Shown here in pieces: positions 621 through 18,480 of a stretch of DNA of 26,251 bases. The position numbers and the translations under genes are program-made. The notes below the pieces were generated by a model. That model saw only the letters and a program-made list of their open reading frames with translations. It was not told the origin of the DNA and did not search any database. Each line of letters opens with the position of its first letter. Position 1 is the first letter of the stretch. Source of the stretch: a virus; IMG/VR virus record IMGVR_UViG_3300035698_008295, positions 1 to 26,251 of that record. One strand, written 5' to 3'.

Positions 621-800
621 TTAAGATAGGTAATCACCTAGCTCTCTCATGGTGAGAGAGCTAGGTGGTCCTTGCTTCCATGAATTGTTTGAGTTGTGAG
701 TCTGGATGGCTTCTCCAGTTGGACGGATTTTCTGCTTAGACCAATCCATCTTCTTGTTGGCAGCAGGGTCTTGCATAAAGAACTTGAAAGGATTTCGCAC
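621..800 (-). CDS. Small hypothetical protein, 59 aa
   Basis: A GTG start at 800 lies 16 nt after the stop of the 78-residue gene and follows an in-frame stop closely. GAGGC just upstream is a weak ribosome site. An internal ATG nine codons in would give 51 residues. The product is polar, with no motif I recognise. Its last 15 codons or so are encoded by the perfect palindrome at 635-667, which is unusual and weakens the case for coding; equally, the palindrome may have been placed over the end of a real gene. It would be the last gene of the leftward cassette. Confidence 0.35.
   Translation of the reverse strand: MRNPFKFFMQDPAANKKMDWSKQKIRPTGEAIQTHNSNNSWKQGPPSSLTMRELGDYLS
635..667. repeat. 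Palindrome copy A: perfect 15-bp stem, 3-nt loop
   Basis: Positions 635-649 and 653-667 are perfect reverse complements around a TGG centre; the core is CTCTCTCA-N3-TGAGAGAG. This is the longest stem of a four-member family (also at 3850, 10930 and 18432). It lies between the converging transcripts, where a bidirectional terminator would be expected, but neither side carries a U-tract. On the minus strand it is nearly identical to copy B over about 27 nt, including the flanks. Confidence 0.8.
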
Positions 801-816
801 GCTGCCTCAGTTACAC

Positions 817-1053
817 CTACCAATACTCAACACATCTAGTCGGAATTGCTCCCGGAGACTTTAGGATTATTTCCCTAATGTGGCACTTGTCGTCTACGGT
901 GATTACTAGCCTTGCGGAACCAGACGGCAAGTACATGGGAGTGCGAAGAGTAATGTGGTCTGGGCTCGTCTTAATGACTTCAATTACTTGACGACCAACA
1001 ACTAGATGTCCATCTACAGCAGCCGAATAGCGGCTAGAGGTTTGCGGAGCCAT
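817..1053 (-). CDS. Small hypothetical protein, 78 aa
   Basis: The ATG at 1053 follows the stop of the 57-residue gene by 18 nt, so it is part of the leftward cassette. Alternating hydrophobic and polar stretches (GHLVVGRQVIEVI, ARLVITVDD) suggest a small all-beta domain, and there are two cysteines near the C-terminus. I do not recognise a family. The ribosome site is weak (TTGGG about 9 nt upstream), so translation may be coupled to the gene before it. Confidence 0.55.
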   Translation of the reverse strand: MAPQTSSRYSAAVDGHLVVGRQVIEVIKTSPDHITLRTPMYLPSGSARLVITVDDKCHIREIILKSPGAIPTRCVEYW

Positions 1054-1071
1054 GTCAACTACCCAAGAACT

Positions 1072-1245
1072 TCAGGAGCGAGGAGAACTGTATGTTAATT
1101 CTAGGGAGATTGAGGCGTACTGGAAAGACCGAATCGGCTCCCGGTACGGAAAATCGACCGGATAGTGACCGGACTCCTTTCGCATCTCCACCAGTCGTCC
1201 GTCCAGTGGACCTCCGATAATTGGGATCTTTAGCCCCTCTCCCAT
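1072..1245 (-). CDS. Small hypothetical protein with GGPLDG motif, 57 aa
   Basis: The ATG at 1245 lies 4 nt after the stop of the preceding gene, with AGGTG about 6 nt upstream. The product has IIGGPLDGRLVE near its N-terminus, followed by a tyrosine/proline-rich strand region. The GG-P-x-DG signature is one I associate with short hypothetical proteins of phages and actinobacteria, whose function is unknown. Its spacing within the cassette (stop at 1072, next start at 1053) and its ribosome site support coding, although it is very short. Confidence 0.6.
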   Translation of the reverse strand: MGEGLKIPIIGGPLDGRLVEMRKESGHYPVDFPYREPIRSFQYASISLELTYSSPRS

Positions 1246-1249
1246 CACT

Positions 1250-1534
1250 TCACCTGCTTTCGTAAGAGCCTGTTTCGGTTAGCAGTTTATGCACTTCCGC
1301 CTGGGTGACTTCCTTGCAGCCGGTGGGCATCAGATGCTCGTCCAGGTGAATTACAATCGCCCGCTTGTAAACTTCGATCCTGGGCCAGTAGAAGACGCCC
1401 ATCAGCTCGAGCAATAACTCCGGGGCAATACCAACGACCGGAAGCCAGTACCTGGGGTTCATGTTCCTCACAGCGTCAAGCTCGCGGATTTTCTCCTCAG
1501 TCTCTTTGTCAGGTAAGTAGGTCTTAATCGGCAT
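1250..1534 (-). CDS. Hypothetical protein, 94 aa
   Basis: The frame is open upstream to 1675, but that part is only the shadow of the preceding gene. I chose the ATG at 1534, which overlaps the preceding stop by 11 nt and has the purine-rich ribosome site GAAGGGAAAG just upstream, an arrangement typical of translational coupling. The product starts MPIKTYLPDKETEEKIREL, then a hydrophobic helix-like stretch (GIAPELLLELMGVFYW), then a C-terminal part with VIHLDEHL. I do not recognise a family and see no membrane segment or metal site. Confidence 0.65.
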   Translation of the reverse strand: MPIKTYLPDKETEEKIRELDAVRNMNPRYWLPVVGIAPELLLELMGVFYWPRIEVYKRAIVIHLDEHLMPTGCKEVTQAEVHKLLTETGSYESR

Positions 1535-2021
1535 CGTCTTTCCCTTCTTCCCAGTGCGGATCTTCGCCAGCTTCTTTGCAGAGGGCGATTGCTGTGTGCG
1601 ATCCAAGGCTAAATACCCGGGCAACCCTGCTCCAAAGTGGGCCGGCCAGTGGGTGCGGGTCGTCTTGTTCGTCACTGGGGGTACTTCCGATGTACTTCAG
1701 GCCCCGCACGGCATTGTGTGTCTGCCGCACGTAGTCATTGAGAATTCCGACAGGTTCCTCTCCATTTTCTCTCTTGTAAAAGGCGATGTAGGATTCTCGC
1801 AGCGATTCACCGAGAGCAATACTTGTCCAGGCAACATCAGGGGCTCCATCCTCTATGGCTTTCCTGATATACGGAGTCGATCCAGCGATACTGAGCGCAT
1901 TGATGACCGGTCCGGAATTGAACAGGGCAAACAGTTTGTTTGCGTCACACTCCGAATCGACTCCGATAATCAAATCAAATGGCAAAAAATTCGATTTCTT
2001 TTTTCTCATGCTGACTTGCAT
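1524..2021 (-). CDS. Hypothetical protein, 165 aa
   Basis: The ATG at 2021 follows the stop of the ASCH-domain gene by 51 nt, with AAAGGG about 6 nt upstream; an ATG four codons later is possible. After a lysine-rich N-terminus comes FDLIIGVDSECDANKLFAL, which looks like a beta strand followed by a helix. An alanine-rich central part and an acidic tail follow. I cannot place it in a family. It overlaps the next gene by 11 nt, which suggests coordinated expression with it. Confidence 0.65.
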   Translation of the reverse strand: MQVSMRKKKSNFLPFDLIIGVDSECDANKLFALFNSGPVINALSIAGSTPYIRKAIEDGAPDVAWTSIALGESLRESYIAFYKRENGEEPVGILNDYVRQTHNAVRGLKYIGSTPSDEQDDPHPLAGPLWSRVARVFSLGSHTAIALCKEAGEDPHWEEGKDDAD

Positions 2022-2072
2022 GGGTTTCCCTTTCGCTTGATTGTTAATGTGCAGTAAACCCCCGTCTTTGTC

Positions 2073-3171: not shown

Positions 3172-3270
3172 CTACTTCCTCCGTAAAGCATGAACTACAA
3201 AATAAATCAGGACTGCCAGCACGCCGGCAATGCCAGTCGCGTTCAGGAATAGTTCGCGAAAGCAAATCAC
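3172..3270 (-). CDS. Micro membrane protein, 32 aa
   Basis: The GTG at 3270 overlaps the TGA of the preceding micro ORF (GTGA), and its own TAG is followed at once by the GTG of the DUF1643 gene. The product has a hydrophobic segment of about 18 residues (ATGIAGVLAVLIYFVVHA) followed by RRK, the pattern of a single membrane helix with a cytoplasmic C-terminus. There is no lipobox. It could be a holin-like or other small membrane factor, but the family cannot be named from so short a sequence. Confidence 0.55.
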   Translation of the reverse strand: MICFRELFLNATGIAGVLAVLIYFVVHALRRK

Positions 3271-3350
3271 CCGAATAGCATCCAGGCAAAGAACAGCAGG
3301 ATCGCAATCCCGCAGGTATTCTCAATTATTTCGTTCCATTTGATTCGCAC
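3267..3350 (-). CDS. Micro membrane protein, 27 aa; first gene of the leftward cassette
   Basis: The GTG at 3350 has AAAGGAG about 6 nt upstream, the best ribosome site of the cassette, and lies about 60 nt downstream of the predicted transcription start of the promoter at 3417-3444. The product has a charged N-terminus (MRIKWNEIIEN) and then a hydrophobic stretch to the end (GIAILLFFAWMLFG). It would insert as a single-pass membrane peptide. It is coupled to the next micro ORF by a GTGA overlap. Function unknown. Confidence 0.5.
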   Translation of the reverse strand: MRIKWNEIIENTCGIAILLFFAWMLFG

Positions 3351-3395
3351 ATCCAACTCCTTTTGGCCTTTCTTTGTCCTGACGCCATAATTCCG

Positions 3396-3424
3396 CTTTC
3401 AGTGTGTCGTGAGATATGTATACT
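3396..3424 (+). promoter_or_regulatory. Candidate rightward promoter of the packaging/late operon
   Basis: A weak -35 box CTTTCA (3396-3401), a 17-nt spacer and a good -10 box TATACT (3419-3424). Transcription would start near 3431, upstream of the first rightward gene at 3465. Its -10 shares the palindrome GTATAC (3418-3423) with the leftward promoter, so the two cannot easily be occupied at once. The weak -35 box is what one expects if an activator or phage factor is needed. Confidence 0.4.
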
Positions 3425-3444
3425 CTTAATCCAGGAAACGTCAA
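3417..3444 (-). promoter_or_regulatory. Sigma70-like promoter of the leftward cassette
   Basis: On the minus strand, TTGACG (3444-3439) is followed after 16 nt by TATACA (3422-3417). Both boxes are close to the sigma70 consensus. The start would fall near 3410, about 60 nt before the first micro ORF. This position also argues against a 60-codon minus-strand ORF that would have to start upstream of the promoter, at 3504. Confidence 0.65.
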
Positions 3445-3464
3445 CAGGCCAGCGGAGAATTCAA

Positions 3465-3848
3465 ATGCAACATTTTGTGAGGGGCCAAGGTGGTCAGCAA
3501 TCAATCTTGCCTGGGCAAGCCGGACCGAGCTTACCGGAAGTGCAGCACGAAGAGTATGCCCGCGTGGAGGCGATGCTGCTGCGACGGGTGGAACTCGCCT
3601 TCAACTATGTCCAGTTCTGTCATGGGCACATGGGCAAGAAAGCATTCCCTTCCACGTATGGCGAGCCGGCAGTGCTTGAGGAGCTGGAGCTGCCTCCGCA
3701 GGCCGAGGGTGTGTACCGGAATGCCTTGAAGCTCATGGACGACTACATGGCAGGACGAACTCAGCCCGATTACCGGAAAGCCCACCGCACGCCATCCATG
3801 AAGAAAGCTTTGCAATACAAGATCATCACACAGAAGAACATCCAGTAA
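3465..3848 (+). CDS. Hypothetical protein at head of late operon, 127 aa
   Basis: The frame is open from 3363, but I start at the ATG at 3465 because GGAG lies about 8 nt upstream and the earlier start would precede the likely promoter. The product has a Gly/Gln-rich N-terminus, a predicted helical centre (HEEYARVEAMLLRRVELAFN), two cysteine/histidine residues (CHGH) and a basic C-terminus (RKAHRTPSMKKALQYK). I do not recognise the family. As the first gene before terminase it could take part in packaging, but that is position only. Confidence 0.6.
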   Translation: MQHFVRGQGGQQSILPGQAGPSLPEVQHEEYARVEAMLLRRVELAFNYVQFCHGHMGKKAFPSTYGEPAVLEELELPPQAEGVYRNALKLMDDYMAGRTQPDYRKAHRTPSMKKALQYKIITQKNIQ

Positions 3849-3849
3849 A

Positions 3850-3870
3850 GCTCTCTCGCCATGAGAGAGC
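3850..3870. repeat. Palindrome copy B, between the first and second late genes
   Basis: GCTCTCTC (3850-3857) pairs with GAGAGAGC (3863-3870). A further G-T pair, which would be a wobble in RNA, closes a CCA loop. It begins two bases after the stop of the 127-residue gene and ends 16 nt before the next ATG. It is nearly identical to the minus strand of copy A, including flanks. Confidence 0.8.
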
Positions 3871-3886
3871 AAGGAGAACAGGGGCC

Positions 3887-4663
3887 ATGGAAGAAATTGT
3901 AATCGCTTCGGAAAAGCCCATGACTGGGAGACGAGCTTTCGCCGAGCGCATTAAGCTAGAGGGGCGCAAGAAAGAGCTGGATGCCATGGTCGCCAAGGTC
4001 AGGCAGGAACAAATGACCGCTACTGGTAAAGTTCATCACTCCAGCGCACAAATGGCTGCGATGCGTCGGCTGGGCTACAAAAGTGCGAAGGAGGAGCTGG
4101 CCTTGCACCAGGAGCGTTTGGATAATATCCATCTGACTTCCCAAGAGAAAGAAGATCGGGAAGTAAAGCGGGTGGAGGACGAGAAGATCCAGCTCATGAG
4201 TTTCGAGGAGGCAGTCAACAGTCTCCCGCCGACCACCGACGACAAGACAGAGATCGACTGGATCCGGGCTCACCCGGCGATGGGGCGTCAGTCCTTGTCT
4301 AACAACGACATGGCGAAGATCAAGATTACCGTGGATGACATTCTCGCTGCCCCTCACGGCAAAGCCCCTTCCCAAAGTGCGGTCTGGAGTCTCCAACACT
4401 GGGCCAATCATACCACGGAGTTTTATAAGCAGATTATCTCCGGGCAAAAGAAGGGTACGGACGGTTCCACGAAAGGGACGGTCTACGGCAGCGAGAAGCA
4501 AATATCCGAGATCCATAAACTCATTAAAGGAATTTCAAATGAAGTCCAGTCAGAAACAGTGGGGGATGATAAAGATCCGGGGGGCGGGCGGAGCGAGCCT
4601 GCAGGGTCCCTGTCCGGTGCAGTTGATTCACTTGGATCCAGTGGCAAGGCCGGAGCCGGGTAA
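3887..4663 (+). CDS. Candidate terminase small subunit, 258 aa
   Basis: The start ATG at 3887 follows palindrome B, with AAGGAGAA upstream. The N-terminal half (to about residue 105) is strongly charged and likely helical or coiled-coil (rich in K, E and R). The central part, about residues 120-200, contains SLSNNDMAKIKITVDDIL and SQSAVWSLQHWANHTTEFY, an alpha-helical region. The tail is Gly/Ser/Asp-rich and probably disordered. The small terminase subunit recognises phage DNA and usually sits directly before the large subunit, as here. I see no clear helix-turn-helix, so the assignment rests on position and helical character. The tail is overlapped by an ORF in another frame at 4539. Confidence 0.45.
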   Translation: MEEIVIASEKPMTGRRAFAERIKLEGRKKELDAMVAKVRQEQMTATGKVHHSSAQMAAMRRLGYKSAKEELALHQERLDNIHLTSQEKEDREVKRVEDEKIQLMSFEEAVNSLPPTTDDKTEIDWIRAHPAMGRQSLSNNDMAKIKITVDDILAAPHGKAPSQSAVWSLQHWANHTTEFYKQIISGQKKGTDGSTKGTVYGSEKQISEIHKLIKGISNEVQSETVGDDKDPGGGRSEPAGSLSGAVDSLGSSGKAGAG

Positions 4664-4766
4664 GTCTGGCATATTCAGTGTTGCCACGACATCGTTGCCT
4701 TTCCTGGTTCCGGCGAAGCTGGGCATGGGAAAGGTTCCCGCGCATACCCTGCGCCCACGTAATTAA
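4539..4766 (+). CDS. Candidate overlapping small gene before terminase, 75 aa
   Basis: The ATG at 4539 has an excellent ribosome site (AAAGGA, 7 nt upstream) although it lies inside the preceding gene in another frame. The first 125 nt overlap the low-complexity tail of that gene; the remaining part fills the otherwise empty stretch up to the terminase start. The product is basic (MKSSQKQWGMIKIRGAGG at the start, HTLRPRN at the end). I do not recognise it. Alternatively the frame is fortuitous and translation here only feeds ribosomes to the terminase start 17 nt downstream. Confidence 0.4.
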   Translation: MKSSQKQWGMIKIRGAGGASLQGPCPVQLIHLDPVARPEPGKSGIFSVATTSLPFLVPAKLGMGKVPAHTLRPRN

Positions 4767-4783
4767 GCTGGAAGGGGCCAAGG

Positions 4784-6736
4784 ATGGCCGACTCCGATCT
4801 ACATAAGCTAGTTCCGAGAGGATTTGAGGAGAACCTCAAGTTCCGGGCTAAGCTATTAAAGAAAGCGGACGAGGATGAATCGTTCCGTGAAGATCTCTGG
4901 GAAGCGTGCAAGAACGATGTTCTGTTCTTTTTCAACGCCTTCTGCTGGCTGTACGAACCGCGACCACGTTTTCTGCATGAGACAACCATCCAGCTCCCCA
5001 AGATGATCCCCTTTATTACTTGGCCCCATCAGGAGCCGGTAATCACTGAGATCAAGAAGAATCTCGGTATCGAAGATATTGTCGTAGAGAAGTCCCGTGG
5101 CGAAGGCATGTCCTGGATTGCTGTGTTGCTGGCTTTGCACGACTGGCTATTCGACGACATGGCCAAGGTAGGTCTGGTCTCCAGTAGCGAGAAGAAGTCT
5201 GACGATCCCGGCAATATGGACTCCTTGCTGGCCAAGATGGACTGGGAGCTAGAGAAGCTCCCGCCTTGGATGGCCGGCATCAAGGATGTGGATTTTACCC
5301 GGAACAAGTCCGATCACTCCTTCGTGAATCACCGCAATGGTTCCCAGGTTAATGCGTTCTCGGCGACCTCCGATACGGGCCGTTCGGGGCGTTATAAATG
5401 GTTTGCTCCTGACGAATTGGCTTTCTGGGAGCGTCCTAAAGACAGTCAGTTCATGACGTCTGTCAGTGGTGCGACCGATTGCCGGCTGATTATCTCCACC
5501 CCCAACGGCAGCGAAGGATCCTACTACGACTTTGTTCATGCTCCCTCCAATGCCGTGAAGTTGCGGCTGCACTGGACGGATAACCCGTCGCGGAACCGGG
5601 GGCTGTATAAACTGGTCAAGGGCAGGCCGGTGGCTGTTGATCCGATCAATAATCCGCTGCCGCGTGAATATGAAGTGATGTCCCAGGAGATCGTTGATCT
5701 TTTCTCCGCCTTGCGGGAGAAAGGGTTCAAGCCGGAAGGCAAGCTGCGTTCTCCCTGGTACGACAAGCAGTGTTATCGCGGAGACGCCACCCCGCATAAG
5801 ATTGCCCAGGAATTGGACCTGGACTATGGCGGGACGATGTTCCGGATCTTCGGAGACGAGTTCCGGGCAATCGCCAAGGAAACAGTCCGCAATCCCACTA
5901 TTCGCGGCATCCTGAGCTACGACACCGAGACGTACGACGTCACCTTCGACAAGTCGGACGATGGGCAGTTCAAGCTCTGGACCCAACTGGATCATCGCAA
6001 CCGTCCTCCGCATCGACCGTATGTGATGGGGGTGGATATTTCCTCCGGCCTCGGCGGGAGTCACACTTCCAACTCCGTGGTGGTGGTGATCGACCAGATT
6101 ACAGGCGAGCAGGTATTCGAGTATTCAACCAACATTGAGGAACCGGGGATGTTCGCCGGCACCTGTCTGGCGATTGGCTACTGGTTCCATACTGCGTATT
6201 TCAACTGGGAAGCCAACTTCGGCGGGGCATTTACTCGCCGGGTGCTGAAATCAGGTTACCCGAATCTGTACTACCGGAAGAATCTGGACTCACGCGGAGA
6301 GAAACGCACAAAGAAACCGGGCTGGTGGACGAGCGACATCACCAAGAGCATCATGATGGGTGCTATTTCCCAGGCAGTGATCGAAAAGAAGTTGGTGATT
6401 CGCGGCAAGGAACTGCTGGAGGAGAGTGGCCAGTACGTTCAAAAGGGAACGCAGATCATTCATACGCAGGCTGCGAAAACGACAGATACTTCCTCGACGG
6501 GGCTGGCTCACGGTGATAGAGTAATCGCTCTCGGTGTTGCCCATCAAGCCAACATTGACCGGCCTGTCAGCAAGGAAGCCCAGGCCGATCCGGAGAATGC
6601 AGTCGATGAATACACTCGTCTAAATCCTCCTAAGGGGACGATGGCGGCAAGGAATAAAGAGTACGAGGATGAGCAGCGCGAGCTGGAGGATGAATGGGAT
6701 GATCGAGGCAACTGGGATATAGCTCAAGGAAGGTAA
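4784..6736 (+). CDS. terL: Terminase large subunit (ATPase and nuclease), 650 aa
   Basis: This is the packaging motor that drives DNA into the prohead through the portal and cuts it. The N-terminal ATPase shows a Walker A-like segment VVEKSRGEGMSW (residues 100-111), in the variant form without the usual GK[ST] that many terminases use. It also has Walker B WFAPDEL (206-212, acidic pair D210/E211) and the coupling motif LIISTPNG (235-242). The C-terminal RNase H-like nuclease has the first acidic residue in VMGVDISSG (D418), a second in WEANFGG (E476) and a third in HGDRVIAL (D578). The charged C-terminal tail fits portal docking. The length is normal to slightly long. The start has the module GGCCAAGG-ATGG shared with two other genes. 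Confidence 0.93.
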   Translation: MADSDLHKLVPRGFEENLKFRAKLLKKADEDESFREDLWEACKNDVLFFFNAFCWLYEPRPRFLHETTIQLPKMIPFITWPHQEPVITEIKKNLGIEDIVVEKSRGEGMSWIAVLLALHDWLFDDMAKVGLVSSSEKKSDDPGNMDSLLAKMDWELEKLPPWMAGIKDVDFTRNKSDHSFVNHRNGSQVNAFSATSDTGRSGRYKWFAPDELAFWERPKDSQFMTSVSGATDCRLIISTPNGSEGSYYDFVHAPSNAVKLRLHWTDNPSRNRGLYKLVKGRPVAVDPINNPLPREYEVMSQEIVDLFSALREKGFKPEGKLRSPWYDKQCYRGDATPHKIAQELDLDYGGTMFRIFGDEFRAIAKETVRNPTIRGILSYDTETYDVTFDKSDDGQFKLWTQLDHRNRPPHRPYVMGVDISSGLGGSHTSNSVVVVIDQITGEQVFEYSTNIEEPGMFAGTCLAIGYWFHTAYFNWEANFGGAFTRRVLKSGYPNLYYRKNLDSRGEKRTKKPGWWTSDITKSIMMGAISQAVIEKKLVIRGKELLEESGQYVQKGTQIIHTQAAKTTDTSSTGLAHGDRVIALGVAHQANIDRPVSKEAQADPENAVDEYTRLNPPKGTMAARNKEYEDEQRELEDEWDDRGNWDIAQGR

Positions 6737-6739
6737 GCC

Positions 6740-7300
6740 ATGTCGAGAATGAATAGGCGGAAGTGTAAGATTAGCGGAAGCACTTCCTTTCAGATGAAGT
6801 GGTTCAGTTCGCTCTCTCTGCCGGTCCATCTTTCCTGGGCGGCGAAAGTCGTGCTGGGCCTGATCGGGAACAAGGTGACCGAACCGAGAGAAATGGCGGT
6901 TGTCCTGGGGATCAAGGAGGAGCCGGAGATCCTGGAGCTGGAGCGATTCATCGAGAGGCTTTTGCTGCGAGGAAAAAAGAACCTTGTGATTCGGAATTGT
7001 TTGCGGAATGGACTCCCTCCAGAGATTGCCGTGGAACTGCCCCAGGACTGCAAAGTTCGATGTGCGACCTGTGAACGCTATACTCGCTACTTGCCCTGCG
7101 TGGCCTGCTTTGTCCCTGGCTACAGTGATGAGGACTCCGTGGAGCCCATGGTCAAGCCAGCGATCAGCACAGAGGAATTGCCTGGAACTATGGGAAAAGT
7201 GGCAGTCATGGAAGAACGGGTGAGGCTAGGGGAATGTCCCTTTCACCCTCGAGATGCGAGAAACTATGATTTGAGTGAGCCCCTGGATTTTTTTGAATAG
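6740..7300 (+). CDS. Hypothetical zinc-ribbon protein between terminase and portal, 186 aa
   Basis: The start lies 3 nt after the terminase stop with AAGGAAGG upstream. The middle (about residues 45-95) is helical and could hold a winged-helix-like region (EPREMAVVLGIKEEPEILELERFIERLLL). It is followed by a zinc ribbon, CATC (108-111) and CVAC (120-123), with C104 nearby. A helix-turn-helix next to a zinc site would suit DNA or protein docking, but this is inference. I do not recognise a named family. Lying between terminase and portal suggests a packaging or head accessory role. Confidence 0.6.
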   Translation: MSRMNRRKCKISGSTSFQMKWFSSLSLPVHLSWAAKVVLGLIGNKVTEPREMAVVLGIKEEPEILELERFIERLLLRGKKNLVIRNCLRNGLPPEIAVELPQDCKVRCATCERYTRYLPCVACFVPGYSDEDSVEPMVKPAISTEELPGTMGKVAVMEERVRLGECPFHPRDARNYDLSEPLDFFE

Positions 7301-7341
7301 TAGTGTGTCGTAATGACATTAAGGGAAAGGAATCCCCACCC

Positions 7342-9108
7342 ATGAAACCCCATACGCCGGATTACGTTGAGAACTTATCGCATTGCATCGGTTGGTCGTA
7401 TGATCAACTGGAGCCGTTTCGCAACCTCACCTTGGGGTTAGTAGAGGAGTATGCCGGCAGCGGTTATGGGAAGTCCAGTAGTCGCAGGCAAGATACGGTA
7501 ATCAACTTGCTGAATCAGGCGGCAGTAGCCTACACGATGGCCCTAGCCGCGAATCGTCCGCGAGTGCTTTACTCTTCTCAGTATCCACAGTTCAAATACT
7601 TTTCCAAACACTTCGCCGAGGCCCAGAATAACCTGAACAAGAAGATCAAGATGGAGAAGGCCGCACGCATGTTCGTGTTGGATGCCTACTTCTGTGTCGG
7701 GTTCATGCGGGTATTCCAGAAGGACACCGTGCCGGTGATGCTGGAACAGGACGTCTGGGTTGATCCGGGCATCCCCTGGGCCAGTAACGTCTCCATCGAC
7801 AACATGTTCTACGATTACAACGCGAGATCCTGGGAGGAGGTTGCCTACGCCGGGGATGTCTACCGGATTCCCTACGCCGATCTAAAGAACAGCCGGTATG
7901 ACCAGAAAGCCAGGGAGGATCTTACTCCCACCAGTAAGTACGACTACCCCCAGGACCGTTTAGACAGAATCGCCAAGGAGCATGAAACCGATCACGATGA
8001 ACTGGAGCCGCACATCGACGTCATGGACGTCTGGGTGGGCAGTCGGAACCAGATCGAGACTTATCCTTGCAAGCTGACTTCGGGAAAGATGTCGATCACT
8101 GGCAAGCGGGCACTGGCGGTGAACGATAACGAGATCGACGGGAACCCTTACGTCCAGCTCGGATTCAATCCTGTCCCACAAAATACCATGCCGACGTCGC
8201 CTGCCCAGCATATCTCCTTTATGTCCAGGAATATCAATAGCCTGCTGCGTAAGCAGATCAAGCGAGCCAAGAACCAGAAGCGCATCCACACCTACACCCC
8301 CACCGGGGCCAAGGATGCCGCGAATCTCAAAAACTCCAACGATGACGATTGGCGTATGGTGCAAGAGCCGAATGAGATCGGCGAAGTCAACATTGGTGGT
8401 GTCGATCCGAATACTCAGGCATTTATTGGCGGTTTGATCCAGATGTTTGACCGCATGGCCGGGAACCTCTCTGCTATGGCTGGTCTGGGGCCGCAATCAG
8501 GGACGGTGGGGCAGGAAAAACTGATCCATGAACAAGTATCCGCCACGGAATCCATGATGCAGATGCGAGTGAAGGAGGCCATGGTTGAAGTGCAGTCGAA
8601 ACTCGGTCACTTGCTCTGGAATAACAAGTCCCTGATGATCCCTGGGAGAATTCCGATCGAGGGGGCGGAGGGGTACTTCGTGGATGATGTCTGGAGGCCG
8701 GAGTACCGCGATGGTGAATTCCTGGACTATGAGGTAGACATCGACGTTTACTCCATGGCATACAACTCTCCGCAGCAGCGGGTGGAAATCATCAACGGGC
8801 TGTTGAATCAAATCTACTTGCCTGCGATGCAGGCAACCCAGGAGCAGGGTGGTCGGCTCAACATGCAAGAGCTGACGTCGATGCACTCTGAGCTATTGAA
8901 CCTGCCGCGACTCAAGCAGATTGTGCAGTTCATCGGCTCCCCCGAAGAGGCTCCCACTCCTGCCGGTCGGCCCATGGCGAGCAATACAACTCGCCGGTAC
9001 GTGCGTACCAGTGAATCCAACGGTGGAAGTATGGCAGGCAAATCCCAGGCCCAGCAGATGGCTTGGCTGGGTGCTGCCAACAATGATCAGGCGGCAATGG
9101 CGATTTAA
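7342..9108 (+). CDS. Portal protein, 588 aa
   Basis: The portal forms the dodecameric ring at one capsid vertex and docks terminase and tail. Evidence is the position after terminase and before scaffold and capsid, the length of nearly 600 residues, and portal-like character: an N-terminal helical region with RQDTVINLLNQAAVAY and a central beta-rich wing. A long helical part follows (NINSLLRKQIKRAKNQ and SATESMMQMRVKEAMVEVQS), then a Gln/Gly/Ala-rich tail. The frame is open from a GTG at 7303, but I prefer the ATG at 7342 because AAGGGAAAGG lies upstream of it, although the spacing of about 11 nt is long. Confidence 0.75.
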   Translation: MKPHTPDYVENLSHCIGWSYDQLEPFRNLTLGLVEEYAGSGYGKSSSRRQDTVINLLNQAAVAYTMALAANRPRVLYSSQYPQFKYFSKHFAEAQNNLNKKIKMEKAARMFVLDAYFCVGFMRVFQKDTVPVMLEQDVWVDPGIPWASNVSIDNMFYDYNARSWEEVAYAGDVYRIPYADLKNSRYDQKAREDLTPTSKYDYPQDRLDRIAKEHETDHDELEPHIDVMDVWVGSRNQIETYPCKLTSGKMSITGKRALAVNDNEIDGNPYVQLGFNPVPQNTMPTSPAQHISFMSRNINSLLRKQIKRAKNQKRIHTYTPTGAKDAANLKNSNDDDWRMVQEPNEIGEVNIGGVDPNTQAFIGGLIQMFDRMAGNLSAMAGLGPQSGTVGQEKLIHEQVSATESMMQMRVKEAMVEVQSKLGHLLWNNKSLMIPGRIPIEGAEGYFVDDVWRPEYRDGEFLDYEVDIDVYSMAYNSPQQRVEIINGLLNQIYLPAMQATQEQGGRLNMQELTSMHSELLNLPRLKQIVQFIGSPEEAPTPAGRPMASNTTRRYVRTSESNGGSMAGKSQAQQMAWLGAANNDQAAMAI

Positions 9109-9131
9109 TCATCTCAACGGAGGCAGACAGC

Positions 9132-9662
9132 ATGAGTGAAGCAGCAGGGGAAAAGCCGTGCATTTTCAAGCGATGCGACAACGGCGAGTTGGTGTACGTG
9201 CCCTTTGCGTATGCCCTGGAACATCAGGACGGGGCAGGGTTCATTGTGCTGGAGGATGGATCCACGGCAAGGCGACAAGTGACGCTAGAAAAAGGAATTG
9301 CCCACGAAGAGGAGCGGATCAAGGGGCTAGGGGAGGCTAAGCACAGCCTGAATGTGCCGATGGTCAGCGATGCCCTGGGGTTCTCCGAAACGATGTTGCC
9401 GCAGTGGGAGAAGGATCGGCAGGACAATCTCTTCCATGGGGTTGAGTTTGTGCGAGATCCCGAGGTCCCGCAGTTCATCCAGGTGAAATGCAACTGCCCG
9501 GCGACGTACGCAAGGTATATCAAGCATCGCGGCATGATCGACCAGAACGCCCACTCCGGCACGGCGATCACAGCCAAGGACCTGGAATCTGCCCGGGAGC
9601 GAATCAACGCGGCGTTTCAAGAACGGGAACAGAAGATGCTGGAGGGAATCGGCTATCGGTAG
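9132..9662 (+). CDS. Hypothetical head-region protein, 176 aa
   Basis: The ATG at 9132 has GGAGG about 8 nt upstream. The N-terminal part looks beta-rich (ELVYVPFAYALEHQDGAGFIVL). The centre has DNLFHGVEFVRDPEVPQFIQV, and CNCPATYARYIKHRG carries a C-x-C pair. The C-terminus is a charged helix (LESARERINAAFQEREQKML). I do not recognise it. Its place between portal and scaffold is often used by maturation protease or head accessory genes, but no protease motif (Ser-Lys or Ser-His pair in context) is visible. Confidence 0.6.
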   Translation: MSEAAGEKPCIFKRCDNGELVYVPFAYALEHQDGAGFIVLEDGSTARRQVTLEKGIAHEEERIKGLGEAKHSLNVPMVSDALGFSETMLPQWEKDRQDNLFHGVEFVRDPEVPQFIQVKCNCPATYARYIKHRGMIDQNAHSGTAITAKDLESARERINAAFQEREQKMLEGIGYR

Positions 9663-9770
9663 TTGCGTGTAGCCAGGACAGCTTTTTGGATAAAATCTTG
9701 CCCTAGACTATTTTTTGTGTGTAGGTGTTGTGCTAAGAATAAGAAATCTAAGTCACGGAGAGGACTGATT
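9663..9770 (+). promoter_or_regulatory. AT-rich gap before the scaffold gene; possible weak promoter
   Basis: No gene is supported here: the scaffold frame is open through the gap but has no ribosome site until 9771. The stretch is T-rich. TTGGAT (9686-9691) and TATTTT (9709-9714) with 17-nt spacing form a weak sigma70-like candidate that would boost scaffold and capsid expression. This is low confidence. Confidence 0.25.
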
Positions 9771-10919
9771 ATGACAGTAGAAAACCAAACTATTGAACCC
9801 CTGACCGAGCGAGAAATCGCCATTGCCAGAGGGGATGCGTACCTGGGGAGTGAAACTTACTCAGGCAAGAATGATCCCGAACCGAAGGATGATGAGCCTG
9901 CAGATAATGATGTCACCACGACATCTGACGACGCAACTGGCCCCACTCCGGAAGAGATCGTAAAGAAAATGGGCGAAAGTTCCGGAACGGATTCCGGCAG
10001 TCCCAAAGGCAGCAAGGAAGCTGCCGAAGCCAAGAGTGCAGCCAGTTCTGAAAGTGATTCAGATCCGGAATGGCTCACTGACGACATGAAGGAGTTCGGC
10101 AAGAGCTACAACATGTCTGATGAGCAGATCCAAGGTTTCTCAGGGAAAGAGGAACTGCTGCGAGCAGGGATGCTCTTTGATCAAGGTGGACGAAATCCTG
10201 CCCAGGCCAAGGTCGCTGATGCGGTTATTGACCCCAATGCTTCCAAGGAAGCTACCGAGGCAGAAAACAAAGCCACGGAAGAAGTCGAGGACCAAACCGG
10301 CAAGGATGTCAAGACGGGCAAGGATGGCCTAATTGACGTCAAGCACTACGAGGACAACGAATACAACGAAGACACGTTGGTACTGGTCAAGACCTTGCGG
10401 GAAATTCAGGAATGGAAGCAGGGACTGGAAGCCCGCGACCAGAAAGCTGCCTACGACAAGGCCATTAAAGAATTCGACTCTGGTGTCGAGAAGCTCTATC
10501 CGGAGATTTTCGGAGACACGCCGGAAGAAGACCAGGAGTTGTCTCAGGAGTTCACCAGCAAGCGTGAAAAGCTCTGGGCGGAGCGAGATAAGTTCGAGAG
10601 GGAGCTGTACGAGGAGAAGCTTGCTGCCGGAGAAAAGCCAGAGGACATGGAATGGCCCAGCTTGGAAACGATCCTGCAGCGAGTCACCTTGAAGGTGTTC
10701 GGCGAAGAGGCAATCAAGGCCGAAAAGGCCCGGCTCCTCACGACCCTGAACGACCAGCAGAAACGCGGTAGAGCGGCTCCCAAACGGAATGTTTCGAGCG
10801 GAGTTCCAGCTAAGAGCAGGGCTGACAGCGGAGACAGTGACGGTTCCTTTGAGGACAGTGCTGCTGAAATCGCCAGTATGCCGGAAATCAATAAGTTCTT
10901 TGAAGAACACTCAAGTTAG
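9771..10919 (+). CDS. Scaffolding protein, 382 aa
   Basis: Scaffolding proteins guide capsid assembly and then leave the head. This one is highly acidic, with an Asp/Glu/Ser/Thr-rich, probably disordered first half and a charged helical second half (EFTSKREKLWAERDKFEREL). It ends in a basic region (LNDQQKRGRAAPKRN) and a short C-terminal helix. A basic C-terminal region that binds the coat protein is typical of the class. It lies directly upstream of the major capsid gene. I chose the ATG at 9771 (GGAGAGG upstream), not the earlier open frame from 9663, whose first 36 codons have a different, Cys/Arg-rich character. Confidence 0.75.
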   Translation: MTVENQTIEPLTEREIAIARGDAYLGSETYSGKNDPEPKDDEPADNDVTTTSDDATGPTPEEIVKKMGESSGTDSGSPKGSKEAAEAKSAASSESDSDPEWLTDDMKEFGKSYNMSDEQIQGFSGKEELLRAGMLFDQGGRNPAQAKVADAVIDPNASKEATEAENKATEEVEDQTGKDVKTGKDGLIDVKHYEDNEYNEDTLVLVKTLREIQEWKQGLEARDQKAAYDKAIKEFDSGVEKLYPEIFGDTPEEDQELSQEFTSKREKLWAERDKFERELYEEKLAAGEKPEDMEWPSLETILQRVTLKVFGEEAIKAEKARLLTTLNDQQKRGRAAPKRNVSSGVPAKSRADSGDSDGSFEDSAAEIASMPEINKFFEEHSS

Positions 10920-10929
10920 TTTTGTGGCT

Positions 10930-10950
10930 ACTCTCTCACGATGAGAGAGT
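10930..10950. repeat. Palindrome copy C, upstream of the major capsid gene
   Basis: ACTCTCTCA (10930-10938) pairs perfectly with TGAGAGAGT (10942-10950) around CGA. Compared with copies A and B, the outer pair is A-T instead of G-C, so pairing is kept while the bases change. It starts 11 nt after the scaffold stop. Confidence 0.8.
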
Positions 10951-10959
10951 TTGAATTTT

Positions 10960-10988: not shown

Positions 10989-11001
10989 GGGAGGCCCAAG
11001 G

Positions 11002-12042
11002 ATGGGACTTTTACCAGATGCTATCGACGATTTTGTTTCCCTGACCCAGCCGCACTTCAAGCGGTATCGGTGGACGGACATCTCCATGGAACACCAGGAG
11101 TATGTCTCTGGGAACATCATCAGTAAAAAGAAGGTGATGGAGTCTGGTGGACCGAATATCTCGTTCCGTCTGAAGACTCGCAACACCGGAAATGCCCGCA
11201 ATACCGGGCTCTATGCCCAGGATCAGACTCGCGTCGAGGATGTGACCGTTGCTGCCAGCGTCCCTTGGGCGATGCAGACGACCAACTACTCCTACGACAT
11301 CTACGAGGAGATTTTCCAGAGTGATCGCGAAACGATCATCAAGGAACTTCAGATCCGTGACCATGATGCGATGAGCGACATGGCGGAGCTGAATGAGGAG
11401 AATCTCTGGTCGACTCCAACGATCCCGAGTGATACTCGCCCCATGGGGATTCCGTTCTGGATTCAGAAGAATCCGACCACGACTCCCGAAGGTGGATTTA
11501 CCGGTGGAGATCCCAGCGGATTCCCTGCCGGCCGAGCTGGCGTCAGCTCGACGAACTACCCGCGATGGTCTAACTGGGCGTTTGGTTATTCCAATGTCAA
11601 CAGTTCGGACTTCGTGCGGAAGGTGAAGAAGTCGATTGTCTTCACCCGGTTCACTCCTCCAGTCCCGCATCCCGAGTTGGGATTTGGTAAGGCCGACTAC
11701 TGTGCCTACACGACCTATCGTGTACTGGAACCACTGGAGCGTCTCTGCGAATCCCGCAATGACAATCTGGGGAACGACTTGGCTAAGTACATGAATACCG
11801 TGATGATCGGTGGCGTGCCGGTCAAGATGGTTTTCTGGCTGGAAGCGGAAGATGCCGACGATCCGATCTACGGCATCAACTGGAAAGTTTTCCGACCGTT
11901 CGTGAAGAAGGGTGTGGACATGCGACGGAACAAGCCCATGCAGCCTACCGGCCAGCACTCGGTTCGTACCGTGCATATCGACCACTCGATGAACTATATC
12001 TCTTACAACCTGCGTGCCCTGTGGGTGGGAAGTAAGTCTTAA
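11002..12042 (+). CDS. Major capsid protein, 346 aa
   Basis: This would form the icosahedral shell. Evidence is its position straight after the scaffold gene, its size (about 39 kDa expected), and a soluble, alpha/beta composition with a central Gly/Pro/Thr-rich stretch and an aromatic C-terminus typical of the HK97-fold shell proteins in this gene order. The ribosome site GGGAGG and the structured leader suggest strong, controlled expression. No cleavage site or separate protease is evident. The family call is from context and overall character rather than one diagnostic motif. Confidence 0.75.
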   Translation: MGLLPDAIDDFVSLTQPHFKRYRWTDISMEHQEYVSGNIISKKKVMESGGPNISFRLKTRNTGNARNTGLYAQDQTRVEDVTVAASVPWAMQTTNYSYDIYEEIFQSDRETIIKELQIRDHDAMSDMAELNEENLWSTPTIPSDTRPMGIPFWIQKNPTTTPEGGFTGGDPSGFPAGRAGVSSTNYPRWSNWAFGYSNVNSSDFVRKVKKSIVFTRFTPPVPHPELGFGKADYCAYTTYRVLEPLERLCESRNDNLGNDLAKYMNTVMIGGVPVKMVFWLEAEDADDPIYGINWKVFRPFVKKGVDMRRNKPMQPTGQHSVRTVHIDHSMNYISYNLRALWVGSKS

Positions 12043-12121
12043 TCTAAAAGGTGTTGTAAAGACATCTACTGTTTGAAACTTGTGATTCTTATTAGTTGCT
12101 TCCCAAGGAAGGGGACATAAC

Positions 12122-12991
12122 ATGAACGGACTTTTGGGCCTATCGGCGAATTCTTTATTCACCAATCACCAGGGGCAGTCTGGTGGTCGGGGATTGAGTC
12201 CTCGTCTCTGGAACAATGCCTACGGGCAGGGATTGTCTCCTGATGGTCAGGCAAATGCCTTTTCCATTGGGGATGACTTCACCAACTTTGGGCAGCTTGC
12301 TCCGGCAATTTCCGGAACGACTGCCTACACTGCCCATGGTGGGTATGGGGCGTACCTCGATACGGCGACTTCTGCCTGTTCGATCAAGCAGCTCGCTACC
12401 GAGAGCGGTGGCGTGATCCGACTGCTTACTGGAGTCACGGACAATCATGAAGCATGGTTGACCAGTGGTGGCAACTCCGGCGTGCTGGGGGCGATCAGTA
12501 ATGTGGCGGGGTCTTCCAAGCTCACTATCCTTGAAATGCGTGCCCGCTTTAATCAGATCGTGACCATCGGCTCCTTTCTGGGACTGGGTGAGGAAGGACT
12601 GGCTGCTGCGGACACGATGGATGATTCAGGCGACTTGGCCAGCAAGGATGTGGTCGGGTTCCATGTGAATGAAGATGATCCGGATGCCTTGTCCTTTGTC
12701 TATCGGAAGGCAGGGCAGTCCCTGGTGGTTCCGATTGCCAGCGTCCAGGCCATTACGGCGGCGACTTGGTATAAGTTTGGGTTTGTGTTCAACCCAGCAG
12801 CCCGACCGAGCCAGCGACTGAAGGTGTATGTGGACAATGCGGAGAACGCGACGACTATCGCGGCTGCGACGATTGCCCTGGCCACTTTCCCGCTAGGCGA
12901 GGAAATGGCATTCCTGGCAGGCATCAAGAACGGTGCTGCGGCTGCTTCCAGTCTGGACCTGGACTGGTGGCAATACTGGCAGGCCGGATAA
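12122..12991 (+). CDS. Virion protein with ConA/LamG-like beta fold, 289 aa
   Basis: The ATG at 12122 has AAGGAAGGGG upstream. The N-terminus (about residues 1-55) is Gly/Asn/Gln-rich and looks flexible, like a virion-anchoring arm. From about residue 100 the sequence alternates strands in the manner of a concanavalin-like jelly roll (LTILEMRARFNQI, WYKFGFVFNPA, RLKVYVDNA) and ends in the typical last strand LDLDWWQYWQAG. Lying between the capsid gene and a strong terminator, it is a good candidate for a capsid decoration or head fibre protein that binds glycans or the shell. Confidence 0.6.
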   Translation: MNGLLGLSANSLFTNHQGQSGGRGLSPRLWNNAYGQGLSPDGQANAFSIGDDFTNFGQLAPAISGTTAYTAHGGYGAYLDTATSACSIKQLATESGGVIRLLTGVTDNHEAWLTSGGNSGVLGAISNVAGSSKLTILEMRARFNQIVTIGSFLGLGEEGLAAADTMDDSGDLASKDVVGFHVNEDDPDALSFVYRKAGQSLVVPIASVQAITAATWYKFGFVFNPAARPSQRLKVYVDNAENATTIAAATIALATFPLGEEMAFLAGIKNGAAAASSLDLDWWQYWQAG

Positions 12992-13020
12992 TCGTATCGG
13001 TGGTGGCTGCGGCTACCGCC

Positions 13021-13066
13021 ATGGCGATGCTGGGACCCCTCCGTGTTCCAGCATCGCCATTTTTTT
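13021..13066 (+). terminator. Strong Rho-independent terminator after the head genes
   Basis: A perfect 13-bp stem, ATGGCGATGCTGG (13021-13033) with its complement at 13048-13060, has a 14-nt loop and is followed by seven T residues. It is the clearest intrinsic terminator in the window and closes the head-gene transcript. The next gene starts only 32 nt later with no obvious promoter in between. Confidence 0.9.
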
Positions 13067-13097
13067 GAATCTTCAATCCATCATCGGGAGAAGTGTC

Positions 13098-13496
13098 ATG
13101 GCAGGAATTAAAAAAATGAAACAGGAGCTATGCGAACTACTGGGTGTGGCTGAGTGCCCCAGGGAGTACGAGTACGCTCTATCTGTCGCGGATCGCGTAG
13201 CCAAGTGCAGCGTACCGGTGCAGCTCGTATTGCTCGGCATTGGCCGGCTCAATCTCCCAGTCGCTTCTCCTGACGAAGATGCAGAAGAGTCGGAAGAGGA
13301 AGTGCCGGAGGAGGTTGCGGAAGTTGAGGGCGAAGAAGAGGAGTCGGAAGAAGTCGAAGAGGAGACCGAATCTGACGAGCCTAAATCGGAAGCAGAACCG
13401 GCCAAGGAGCCGGAGCCCAAGAAGGCCCCAGCCAAGCGAAAAAGCAGAGCGAAAAAACCAAAGCCTGCCGAGAAACCACAGCCAGAAGACAAGTAA
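13098..13496 (+). CDS. Acidic/basic low-complexity protein, 132 aa
   Basis: The ATG at 13098 has GGGAGAAG upstream; the frame is open earlier but runs through the terminator there, so that part is not coding. The first 60 or so residues form a small, probably helical domain (KKMKQELCELLGV, YEYALSVADRVAKC). Next comes a run very rich in Glu (about 62-105) and a tail of Lys, Pro and Ala repeats (EPKKAPAKRKSRAKKPKP). The charge-split tail could bind DNA or a partner electrostatically. I do not recognise a family. Confidence 0.65.
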   Translation: MAGIKKMKQELCELLGVAECPREYEYALSVADRVAKCSVPVQLVLLGIGRLNLPVASPDEDAEESEEEVPEEVAEVEGEEEESEEVEEETESDEPKSEAEPAKEPEPKKAPAKRKSRAKKPKPAEKPQPEDK

Positions 13497-13534
13497 GTCG
13501 CTGGCAAACGAAGTCTTAACGGAGGATGTTTGTG

Positions 13535-14383: not shown

Positions 14384-14393
14384 GAGTCAAGGG

Positions 14394-15250: not shown

Positions 15251-16911
15251 GCGTCAACTATACGATCAAACCAGACGGTGGTAAGGTTGCCCTCTCGCTT
15301 AATTCGCTCGGGCACCTGACTCGCTCCAATGCGGGCCTCGGCCTGTTGCTCCCGGGGAGTGCCGACTTTGTTTTCGGTTGGTGGGTTTATCTGACAAGTA
15401 AAGCTGCATCGAGTGCCGTTGTCTCCGTGTTTTATGCGCTCAACGACCGACGCGCCTATATACTGTCTTACAATCATGTCCTCGATCGGTATGTTTGGAC
15501 TCTCAATGCGACCGGAGCGGCAGCAGGCAACGTCACGATCTCCGCAAATAACTTCGGGAGTCCCCCGCTCAATACCTGGATGTTTGTCGAATGCGGGCGT
15601 ATCAGCGGTTCCAGTTTCATCCGTGTGAACCGAGGTACTTCAAACTCAGCGGCATTCGCTGGCTCTGTGTTTGCTTCGAGCGTGGAGATGCAAGTTGGCG
15701 GATCCAATGGAAACACCCACTTCACCGGCCGGATCGATGAGGGATATTTTTGGACGAATGCAGGCGGGAACAGTCTACCGACCAGCGGTGATTCCGACGA
15801 CATCTACAATAGTGGATCGGGGGTCAGTTGGGGAGAGTTACTCGACCTTGAACTTGCCTTGCCCTATGCGGCGTGGAGTCTCGAAGAGACGAGCGGCACA
15901 CGCTATGATCGACTTGGGAATAAGCCATTGTCAGTCAGCGGCACGGTGGCTAATGCTAGTGGCTTAGTCGTCACTGCTGACTATACTTTGCTCCAGACAT
16001 GGGGAGCGAATCTCGCAGCTACCTACGATGGCTCTGAGGCGTGGAATGCGCTCGTTTACTCCGGTGATGATTTTTTGGGGAGTGCGGACTACACCCTGTC
16101 TGGCATCCAAGAAACGGGCGAGCCAGTCACGATCAGAGCAGCTGATCAGCAAGGCCATGCTGGCGATCCCACTGCAGGTGCATTCACTGAGTTCGATCTC
16201 ACGATCTCGAATTGTGACAATATTCACGTCGAGGGTCTCCGATTTGATGGGGGTGAGCTCGCATTCATCGGCGGCGGTTCCAACTATGATTTTCAGGCGA
16301 CCGGCAATCTCATCGCCGCCGGTTTGTTGCATATCAATTTAGATGCTGCCGATCTGGACGGGTTGCTGATCGAAAATAATCTCTGCATCGAGAATCCTGC
16401 ATTCGGAATCCTGGTCTATGTGGATGCGACCGACAGCAATGCGGAGTTGACGGATGCTGCGATTCTGCACAACACGATCATCGGCGTGGATGATGGTGAT
16501 TATGGCATCGAGGTGATCGGCGTTGAATCAGCAGGAGCAGCCACCTTTGCGGGTGCTGTCTTGAATAACTGCGTGATCGGCTGCGGGGCTCTCGATCTGT
16601 TTGTTGATGACACAAATTTCACTTCCTTCACGCTCGATCAGCAGGGCAATGCGACCAGCGACGAGTCTGGGGAAGTTACGGGGCTGGCAGCAGCGGATAT
16701 CTTTGTCGATCCACTCAGCGACTATACCCCCAAGGCCAATGGGGACCTGCATCGGGCGGGAGTGGAGTCCACGACATTAATTGACATCTTAGGCAACGGC
16801 AGAAACTCTACGCCAGACATCGGTGCCTTTGAACAGGCAACGTCGCCTGCTAGTGATTGGTCTTTTGGTAATATCTATGACGGCTTGAGTCTGGGGATCT
16901 ACGATGACTAA
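15247..16911 (+). CDS. LamG-like plus beta-helix protein, tail-spike-like, 554 aa
   Basis: About residues 30-215 look like a LamG/concanavalin-type lectin domain: FGWWVYLTSK, WMFVECGRI and the typical closing strand GRIDEGYFWTNAG. From about residue 255 the pattern changes to repeated short strands with Asn ladders (NIHVEGLRFDGG, LLIENNLCIENPAFG, AAILHNTIIGVDDG). This is a right-handed parallel beta helix, and it ends in PDIGAFEQ (about 523-530), a common closing signature of such domains. Beta-helix proteins of phages are often tail spikes with glycan-degrading activity, but I see no assured catalytic residues. The last 20 residues form a short tail that could anchor it. The gene lies among connector genes, an unusual place for a spike. 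Confidence 0.65.
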   Translation: MSVNYTIKPDGGKVALSLNSLGHLTRSNAGLGLLLPGSADFVFGWWVYLTSKAASSAVVSVFYALNDRRAYILSYNHVLDRYVWTLNATGAAAGNVTISANNFGSPPLNTWMFVECGRISGSSFIRVNRGTSNSAAFAGSVFASSVEMQVGGSNGNTHFTGRIDEGYFWTNAGGNSLPTSGDSDDIYNSGSGVSWGELLDLELALPYAAWSLEETSGTRYDRLGNKPLSVSGTVANASGLVVTADYTLLQTWGANLAATYDGSEAWNALVYSGDDFLGSADYTLSGIQETGEPVTIRAADQQGHAGDPTAGAFTEFDLTISNCDNIHVEGLRFDGGELAFIGGGSNYDFQATGNLIAAGLLHINLDAADLDGLLIENNLCIENPAFGILVYVDATDSNAELTDAAILHNTIIGVDDGDYGIEVIGVESAGAATFAGAVLNNCVIGCGALDLFVDDTNFTSFTLDQQGNATSDESGEVTGLAAADIFVDPLSDYTPKANGDLHRAGVESTTLIDILGNGRNSTPDIGAFEQATSPASDWSFGNIYDGLSLGIYDD

Positions 16912-18418
16912 TACCTTGGCGATGGACTACAACAAGATCCGGCGTGCGGTGGGCATGAGTGCCTCGTACGGCAGGAACTACTCCATCTGGTCTCCCCAGG
17001 TGGCTGCGGACGTCGATGCGTTTATTGAGGATGCCCTGCGAAGAGTATACTTCGATGCGCGACTGCCAAGCACGGAAAGAGAGCTAGAGCCCCCTCACTC
17101 TTGGTCGTTCTTGCGGGCGGTGAAGTTCCTGGAGATTGTCGCGGGCGAGAGTACCTACGACTTGCCGGCGAACTTTGGTGACATGCTGGGGAGCGGATTT
17201 ATCTATGCGGCAGACGACAAGCAGCCTCCGGTTGCTGTGGTGAATGAGGGCGAAGTGCGGTCGATTGTCTCCAATGCAAGTAAGTCAGGCCCGCCGAAAT
17301 ACTGTGCAATCCGCCCCAAAGAACAGACAGATGGAGCGCAGACCACCTACGAAGTGGTCTTTTATCCGACCCCGGACGCCAGCTACACGCTGTCGTATCG
17401 CTACGGAATCATCCCTCCGATGATTTCCGAGGACAATCCTTACCCGATGGGTGGGGCAGTCCACGGAGAACTGATCAAAGCGGCGTGCTGTGCCCAAGCA
17501 GAGATTGAACTGGGCGACAACGAAGGGATCTGGTCGAAACGGTACCGGGAGCTACTGGCCTCCAGTATTGCCCTGGATACTCGCTTGGCGGCATCGGTGG
17601 AATCTGAGGCATGGCCCCTGGAGGATGAGGCTACCGGGTTGACGATCAACAGAGCCTACCTGGGCAGGTTGATCGGTAATACCATGAAGTTCGGCCCGAA
17701 TCGCTCCATTTGGAATCATCGGCAACTGCAGGAGGTTAAGCTGGTTCTGGAAACCGCCCTGCGGAAGTTCTACTCCCCGCCTGTGTTGCAGGGGGAGAGG
17801 TATCCACATGACTGGAGTTTTCTGGAGCCCATCGTGCCGTTTCAGTTGGTCTCCGGTCAGTACGAGTACGATCTGCCGGATGGTTTCGTCGATATTGTGG
17901 GCCGGATCAGCTACGCTCCGGCAGAATCGGTGATCTATCCCGACATCGAAATCATTGGAATTGAGCGGATCTTGATGAGAATCAGACGTTCCACTCCAGC
18001 CGGCAGACCGGAATTGGCGGCATGGGTGGTCAAACCCTTTGATTCGGCGACTGGAACCCGGCATCAGCTAGTGGTCTGGCCAGTCCCCGATGCCAGCTAT
18101 GACTTAAATATCCGGATGCAGCTCAATCCGCACAGCCTGGGTGAAGAGTCGGAGTTCCCGTTGGGTGGACAGCAGCACGCTCAGACACTGATTGAGGCCT
18201 GTCTGGCAGCAGTCGAACAGTATCAAGGAAAGAATGGGCTGCATGTCCAAGAGTTTGAACGATGCCTGATGGCAAGTGTGGGGGCAGACAGGAAACTCAA
18301 TGCCCCGGACACCATGGGTAGGAACACTGATCATAGTGACACGCCGGAAGATGACCATTATTTTTCCCGGCGTGATTGCAACTCTCAGGTTGTCACCTAT
18401 AATGGCGTATCGTATTAG
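16904..18418 (+). CDS. Head-tail adaptor with tandem duplicated domain, 504 aa
   Basis: Resembles the connector/adaptor proteins that join portal to tail in short-tailed phages (roles like P22 gp4 and T7 gp11). Two copies of one domain are visible: residues about 12-245 and 253-485. Matched pairs are GRNYSIW / GPNRSIW, the HSWSFL / HDWSFL stretch, STYDLPANF / YEYDLPDGF, VVFYPTPDASYTL / LVVWPVPDASYDL and NPYPMGGAVHGE / SEFPLGGQQHAQ. Normal family members carry one such domain of about 230 residues, so this is a fusion. The start overlaps the spike-like gene by 8 nt. Confidence 0.7.
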   Translation: MTNTLAMDYNKIRRAVGMSASYGRNYSIWSPQVAADVDAFIEDALRRVYFDARLPSTERELEPPHSWSFLRAVKFLEIVAGESTYDLPANFGDMLGSGFIYAADDKQPPVAVVNEGEVRSIVSNASKSGPPKYCAIRPKEQTDGAQTTYEVVFYPTPDASYTLSYRYGIIPPMISEDNPYPMGGAVHGELIKAACCAQAEIELGDNEGIWSKRYRELLASSIALDTRLAASVESEAWPLEDEATGLTINRAYLGRLIGNTMKFGPNRSIWNHRQLQEVKLVLETALRKFYSPPVLQGERYPHDWSFLEPIVPFQLVSGQYEYDLPDGFVDIVGRISYAPAESVIYPDIEIIGIERILMRIRRSTPAGRPELAAWVVKPFDSATGTRHQLVVWPVPDASYDLNIRMQLNPHSLGEESEFPLGGQQHAQTLIEACLAAVEQYQGKNGLHVQEFERCLMASVGADRKLNAPDTMGRNTDHSDTPEDDHYFSRRDCNSQVVTYNGVSY

Positions 18419-18431
18419 TGTCGTGACAAAA

Positions 18432-18448
18432 TCTCTCAAGCTGAGAGA
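18432..18448. repeat. Palindrome copy D, after the adaptor gene
   Basis: TCTCTCA (18432-18438) pairs with TGAGAGA (18442-18448) around AGC. It is the shortest stem of the family (7 bp); the next pair is an A/G mismatch. On the minus strand it closely matches copy C, including flanking bases. It lies 13 nt after the adaptor stop. Confidence 0.7.
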
Positions 18449-18457
18449 GTAGCGAAG

Positions 18458-18473: not shown

Positions 18474-18480
18474 GCCAAGG

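Follow-up and report, generated by a model that had tools for sequence, protein, structure and literature searches.

The window, as we call the whole stretch of DNA analyzed here, corresponds to the full length of one IMG/VR record (26,251 bases) and represents a 26-kb fragment of a SU10-like podophage. It has no nucleotide relative in the phage collection, and no recognizable regulator gene was found within its 26 kb. The genes referred to below are as follows.

3887-4663, + strand: small-terminase-like (terS-like) gene, named from its position before terL and conserved in the group
4784-6736: terL
7303-9108: portal gene, weakly SU10-like (below the Pfam cut-off)
11002-12042, + strand: inferred major capsid gene, its role assigned from gene order and conservation
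16904-18418, + strand: SU10-adaptor gene (PF24175, E = 2.8e-18), upstream of copy D of the palindrome family
18481-18840, + strand: virion-operon gene for a 119-aa protein, downstream of copy D and conserved in several relatives

Neither the terS-like product nor the inferred capsid product has a match in Pfam or PHROG; the inferred capsid gene is the best-conserved gene of the group, with 55-71% identity in the nearer relatives. The adaptor gene matches as two domains, and a SU10-adaptor-like stretch is repeated about eight times in tandem in another contig (G001; L012, about 3189-9680). Among the minor features of the window, an identical 16-mer, GGCCAAGGATGGCCGA, lies over the start codons of terL (4776-4791) and of the 119-aa gene (18473-18488), and the start of the capsid gene has a similar context. 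A strong intrinsic-terminator-like hairpin (13021-13060; 16 pairs followed by T6) stands directly past the gene after the capsid gene, and the ORF called at 12933-13496 probably starts downstream of it.

A palindrome family in the window

A family of palindromes with the pattern CTCTCTCA-NNN-TGAGAGAG is spread over the window. The four members described in an earlier note on this DNA (copies A to D) are all present, and a weak match, copy E, is listed with them.

635-667, copy A: CACCTAGCTCTCTCA-TGG-TGAGAGAGCTAGGTG, perfect 15-bp arms around a 3-nt centre, in the leftward cassette
2877-2895, copy E (weak): CTCTCTCAGGGTGAGACAT, two mismatches, with the inner core TCTCA-NNN-TGAGA intact
3850-3870, copy B: GCTCTCTCGCCATGAGAGAGC, eight pairs plus a G-T pair at the loop edge
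10930-10950, copy C: ACTCTCTCACGATGAGAGAGT, nine pairs
18431-18449, copy D: ATCTCTCAAGCTGAGAGAG, seven pairs, an outermost A/G mismatch, then A/T

With up to two mismatches allowed, the pattern occurs five times in the window, whereas 200 simulated sequences averaged 0.005 occurrences; with up to three, the counts are six and 0.20. A search of the window for other palindrome families of at least three copies found none. The inverted matches among copies that the earlier note had pointed out are there, at 90% over 29 nt for copies A and B and at 85% over 27 nt for copies C and D. Its argument from changes that preserve pairing fared less well: the G-C to A-T change in the flanking pair and the G-T pair of copy B are both there, but within the arms every altered pair lacks a compensating change. 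The statement that the palindromes lack a U-tract is right for copies A and B, whereas copy C (on the + strand) and copy D (on the - strand) were flagged as weakly terminator-like. A further GC-rich inverted repeat, CCCCGGGGGGCCTGCCCCCGTAGGG, without a T-run, lies at 553-580, downstream of copy A in the minus-strand direction.

Copies B, C and D fall completely within gaps between genes, which make up 2.0% of the possible 19-mer positions (three of the five copies, P of about 8e-5). Copy B sits immediately 5' of the RBS (AAGGAG) of the terS-like gene, copy C has the capsid start codon 52 bases on, and copy D lies past the SU10-adaptor gene and ahead of the 119-aa gene. For these three the proposed placement at gene ends or in leaders stands. 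It does not extend cleanly to copy A, which overlaps the final, 3' codons of an unsupported minus-strand ORF (620-800, 59 codons) and so is itself not clearly in a gap, nor to copy E, which is intragenic (within a minus-strand DUF1643 ORF). Copy E could be a fifth site, the alternatives being a decayed copy or a chance match.

Palindrome families in relatives

The CTCTCTCA family was found in none of the relatives tested and is unique to the window genome among them. Exact matches to CTCTCTCA-NNN-TGAGAGAG in 29 other viral contigs were set aside as chance or unrelated, being mostly of one copy each; L037 alone among the 29 matches a window protein, and even there weakly. Other families were found in other members of the group. 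The closest relative with a long sequence, G006 (capsid identity 71%), has a family of its own, GTGACA-CAG/CTG-TGTCAC, with 14 sites at up to one mismatch and 15-16 at up to two in 28 kb, ten sites lying within the first 5.7 kb. In G046 (76.7 kb) the corresponding pattern is GTGACA-ACG/CGT-TGTCAC, which occurs exactly at eight sites and, when up to two mismatches are tolerated, at 14, most of them located in leaders or in divergent regions; GTGACAACGTGTCACATT was found in G046 only. The families of the window, G006 and G046 follow a common plan, in which a half-site ending in CA is followed by a 3-bp centre and then TG.

Two further families stand outside the main argument: a degenerate one in G053 (TGACA-N3-TGTCA), and ten GACCTAGNCTAGGTC-type palindromes at 4693-10868 in the 13 kb of G062 (L225, a terL relative), some of them paired 21-30 bp apart. 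A 20-mer of G002, ATGTCTCGTCGCCGAGACAT, was rejected as a family (three copies, in predicted genes, not above simulations), and palindrome families within tandem or coding repeats of other loci (for example, L112, L114, L116 and L159) were left out. The families are sporadic, and most other contigs of the group have none.

Sites of the G006 family at 5690, 16223 and 21834 occupy the borders of window copies B, C and D, respectively. At the copy B border the downstream genes are homologous (window 3887-4663 and G006 5717-6370, 38%); at the copy D border G006 is without the 119-aa gene, and what matches is the position directly after the adaptor gene. A hand calculation puts the probability that three of three borders coincide by chance at about 0.01-0.02 (based on 5-6 occupied of about 22 borders, or on three of about eight wide borders). 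A G046 site at 18125 was considered as an equivalent of copy D and not counted, the homology table placing it one gene earlier. The earlier note had regarded an absence of conservation at the same gene borders in related phages as evidence against its proposal; we find that the sequence is not kept, but that G006 carries a palindrome of different sequence at three of these borders.

A prophage relative and the search for a regulator

An apparently intact SU10-like prophage is present in Cerasicoccus frondis (G067 contig C5, about 116-166 kb; L218, L259-L263). It is a distant relative (capsid identity 36%) that encodes a tyrosine integrase and, adjoining it, an HTH plus Peptidase_S24 (CI-type) repressor (4.4e-13), and its palindromes have the half-site ATTTACGA, different from that of the window. 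Dispersed sites of the prophage include those at 37675, 38744 and 46409. A matrix whose training set was confined to four dispersed sites (a pair where the gene preceding terL begins, one site in a divergent region and one in a late-gene leader) was used to scan 100 kb; in coordinates equal to 185001 minus the contig position, the best remaining match lies at 21280, beside the repressor gene, with two more at 21313 and 21331. When the columns of the matrix were permuted (1000 trials), an equally extreme best match arose in 7 of the 1000 and three such peaks in 1 of the 1000. In at least one member of the wider group, dispersed border palindromes look like the operators of the phage's own repressor.

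Searches of the free phages for HTH_3 and Peptidase_S24 gave nothing convincing, even with the 76.7-kb G046 among them, and for S24 the 32 phage contigs searched, many of them fragments, yielded no match. Among 384 genomes of the Cerasicoccus class, no such prophage was found besides that of G067. Two small proteins, one HTH-like of 92 aa in G006 and one HTH of 91 aa in G046, were considered as regulators: they have no similarity to each other, and the G006 protein is without a PDB relative.

Operators, late promoters or RNA hairpins

We consider it probable that the palindromes are dispersed operators, sites in double-stranded DNA at which a phage regulator would bind as a dimer; a repressor is the likeliest kind. 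Such a regulator would bind half-sites that end in CA and flank a 3-bp centre and, the copies being spread over both the leftward cassette and the late operon, one protein could silence or roadblock transcription at several borders, with those at terS, at the capsid gene and after the adaptor gene under its control. We infer that the window sites are bound by a regulator of the phage itself, that it acts as a repressor, and that its gene lies outside the 26-kb fragment. The best-supported reading of the comparison with relatives is that operator positions persist at borders while the letters turn over. Of the earlier note's three proposed roles, the evidence favors that of operators for a phage regulator. 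The case for operators is weakened by the failure to find the regulator in the window, by the distance of the prophage and its different half-site, by the sporadic occurrence of the feature and by the modest P value of the G006 borders, as well as by the RNA fold of copy A and the paired changes in capsid-leader hairpins of other relatives (see below).

The main rival explanation, which we regard as unlikely, is that the palindromes are phage-specific late promoters, or parts of promoters, read by a phage sigma factor or activator at the borders of late operons. Copies B, C and D do lie upstream of late genes, and in G046 the flanks of the sites are directional, with AAA in front and ATT behind, and a start codon is often found within about 10-40 bases. 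The late promoters of phiEco32 and phage 7-11, members of the same broad virion group by the SU10 marker, stand upstream of late genes at positions that are kept while the consensus changes (PMC8948821). Those promoters, however, are of the sigma-factor type (tAATGTAtA or GTAAtg-(16)-aCTA), single or bipartite, and are not dyads (PMC8948821), and inspection by eye of the surroundings of the G046 and window sites showed no second element that recurs. Also speaking against late promoters are sites that lie inside long genes or are closely paired (G006 1808/1846, G046 32056 and window 2877) and, in the Cerasicoccus prophage, the clustering of the motif next to a CI-type repressor.

We give a little less credence still to the idea that the family consists of RNA leader hairpins (RNase III-type processing sites, mRNA stabilizers or weak terminators) copied within the genome. 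Stable RNA folds count in its favor, that of copy A being very strong (-28.9 and -32.5 kcal/mol) and those of copies B and C moderate, as does the G-T pair in copy B; the fold of copy D, however, is no better than those of many shuffled sequences (17/200 on the + strand, 72/200 on the - strand). In the families of the window (G000), G006 and G046, 20 pairs depart from the consensus, of which 14 are unpaired, six are G-T and none is compensated, and what is kept is the letters, beyond mere pairing. The asymmetric centre of the G046 sites reads ACG or CGT regardless of which way the gene downstream points, and that family also has a recurrent A/A mismatch just outside its arms. The absence of any compensated pair among the 20, together with the use of the G046 centre in either orientation, favors sites read in double-stranded DNA by a dimeric protein rather than RNA hairpins, and on these grounds the RNase III sites and mRNA stabilizers suggested in the earlier note are disfavored. 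The G062 family is neutral in this respect: at four of its outer pairs both partners have changed and pairing survives, but such symmetric change is as compatible with a DNA dyad as with an RNA stem.

Paired changes, which count toward RNA hairpins, are seen in single-copy hairpins upstream of the capsid gene in other relatives (L060, L061, L067 (about -71), and L063, L064), where the letters change and the pairing is kept. Their stems are AAATGAC/GTCATTT, CAGATGAC/GTCATCTG and TAACTGAC/GTCAGTTA, and the hairpins of L063 and L064 share a kept loop, GCC-GTGTA-GGC. We treat these capsid-leader hairpins as distinct from the palindrome family and as a candidate RNA element in their own right.

Least probable, to a degree that we would call slight, are other kinds of dispersed DNA site, whether partition sites like the centromere repeats of N15 (which the palindromes resemble in being dispersed and of low copy number) or hairpin promoters for an N4-like virion RNA polymerase (which they resemble in that N4 early promoters have 3-nt loops), since no ParA or ParB is found among the 13 Pfam families in 74 G046 proteins, 15-16 sites within 28 kb, as in G006, is a high number for a centromere, and the large G046 proteins have no RNA polymerase match.

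Comparison with known dispersed repressor sites

If the palindromes are operators, they would belong, by kind, with dispersed sites that are already known. The conserved inverted repeats (CIRs) of the Streptomyces phage phiC31 are palindromic repressor sites found in intergenic positions genome-wide; they differ from the window sites in sequence, host and virion type, and are likened to them by description. In Cluster A mycobacteriophages (L5 and Bxb1), the stoperators provide many sites for the immunity repressor Rep across one phage genome, and their motif, like that of the sites in the window and its relatives, is similar but not identical between relatives (PMC6550527). Stoperators are, however, asymmetric and mostly in one orientation to transcription (PMC6550527), whereas the window sites are dyads, and a Rep-type repressor was not identified here. 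The SPbeta repeated element (SPBRE), a 15-bp motif repeated at intergenic places of the SPbeta prophage, is bound by the master repressor MrpR (PMC10516654), a protein with a tyrosine-recombinase fold, whereas the Cerasicoccus prophage relative has an S24 repressor.

More tentatively, and with less confidence than we attach to the operators themselves, some SU10-like podophages may possess a genome-wide regulatory network in which the positions at the terS, capsid and post-adaptor borders are kept and the letters are replaced (CTCTCTCA in the window, GTGACA in G006 and G046, and ATTTACGA in Cerasicoccus), the regulator of the free phages being of an unrecognized type. Cultured SU10-like and phiEco32-like phages have, to our knowledge, been studied as lytic; the dispersed operator-like sites of their uncultured relatives, together with the apparently intact Cerasicoccus prophage and its integrase and S24 repressor, suggest a temperate lifestyle with direct control of the late operons in some members of this virion group. 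If operator letters are indeed exchanged while positions stay fixed, this would provide a natural series on how immunity specificity can change across many sites together.

With regard to the fold of MrpR, G046 encodes at 50627-51229 a 200-aa protein with a tyrosine-recombinase catalytic domain, but homologues of it are present in G001, G002, G038, G039 and G047, with or without a palindrome family.
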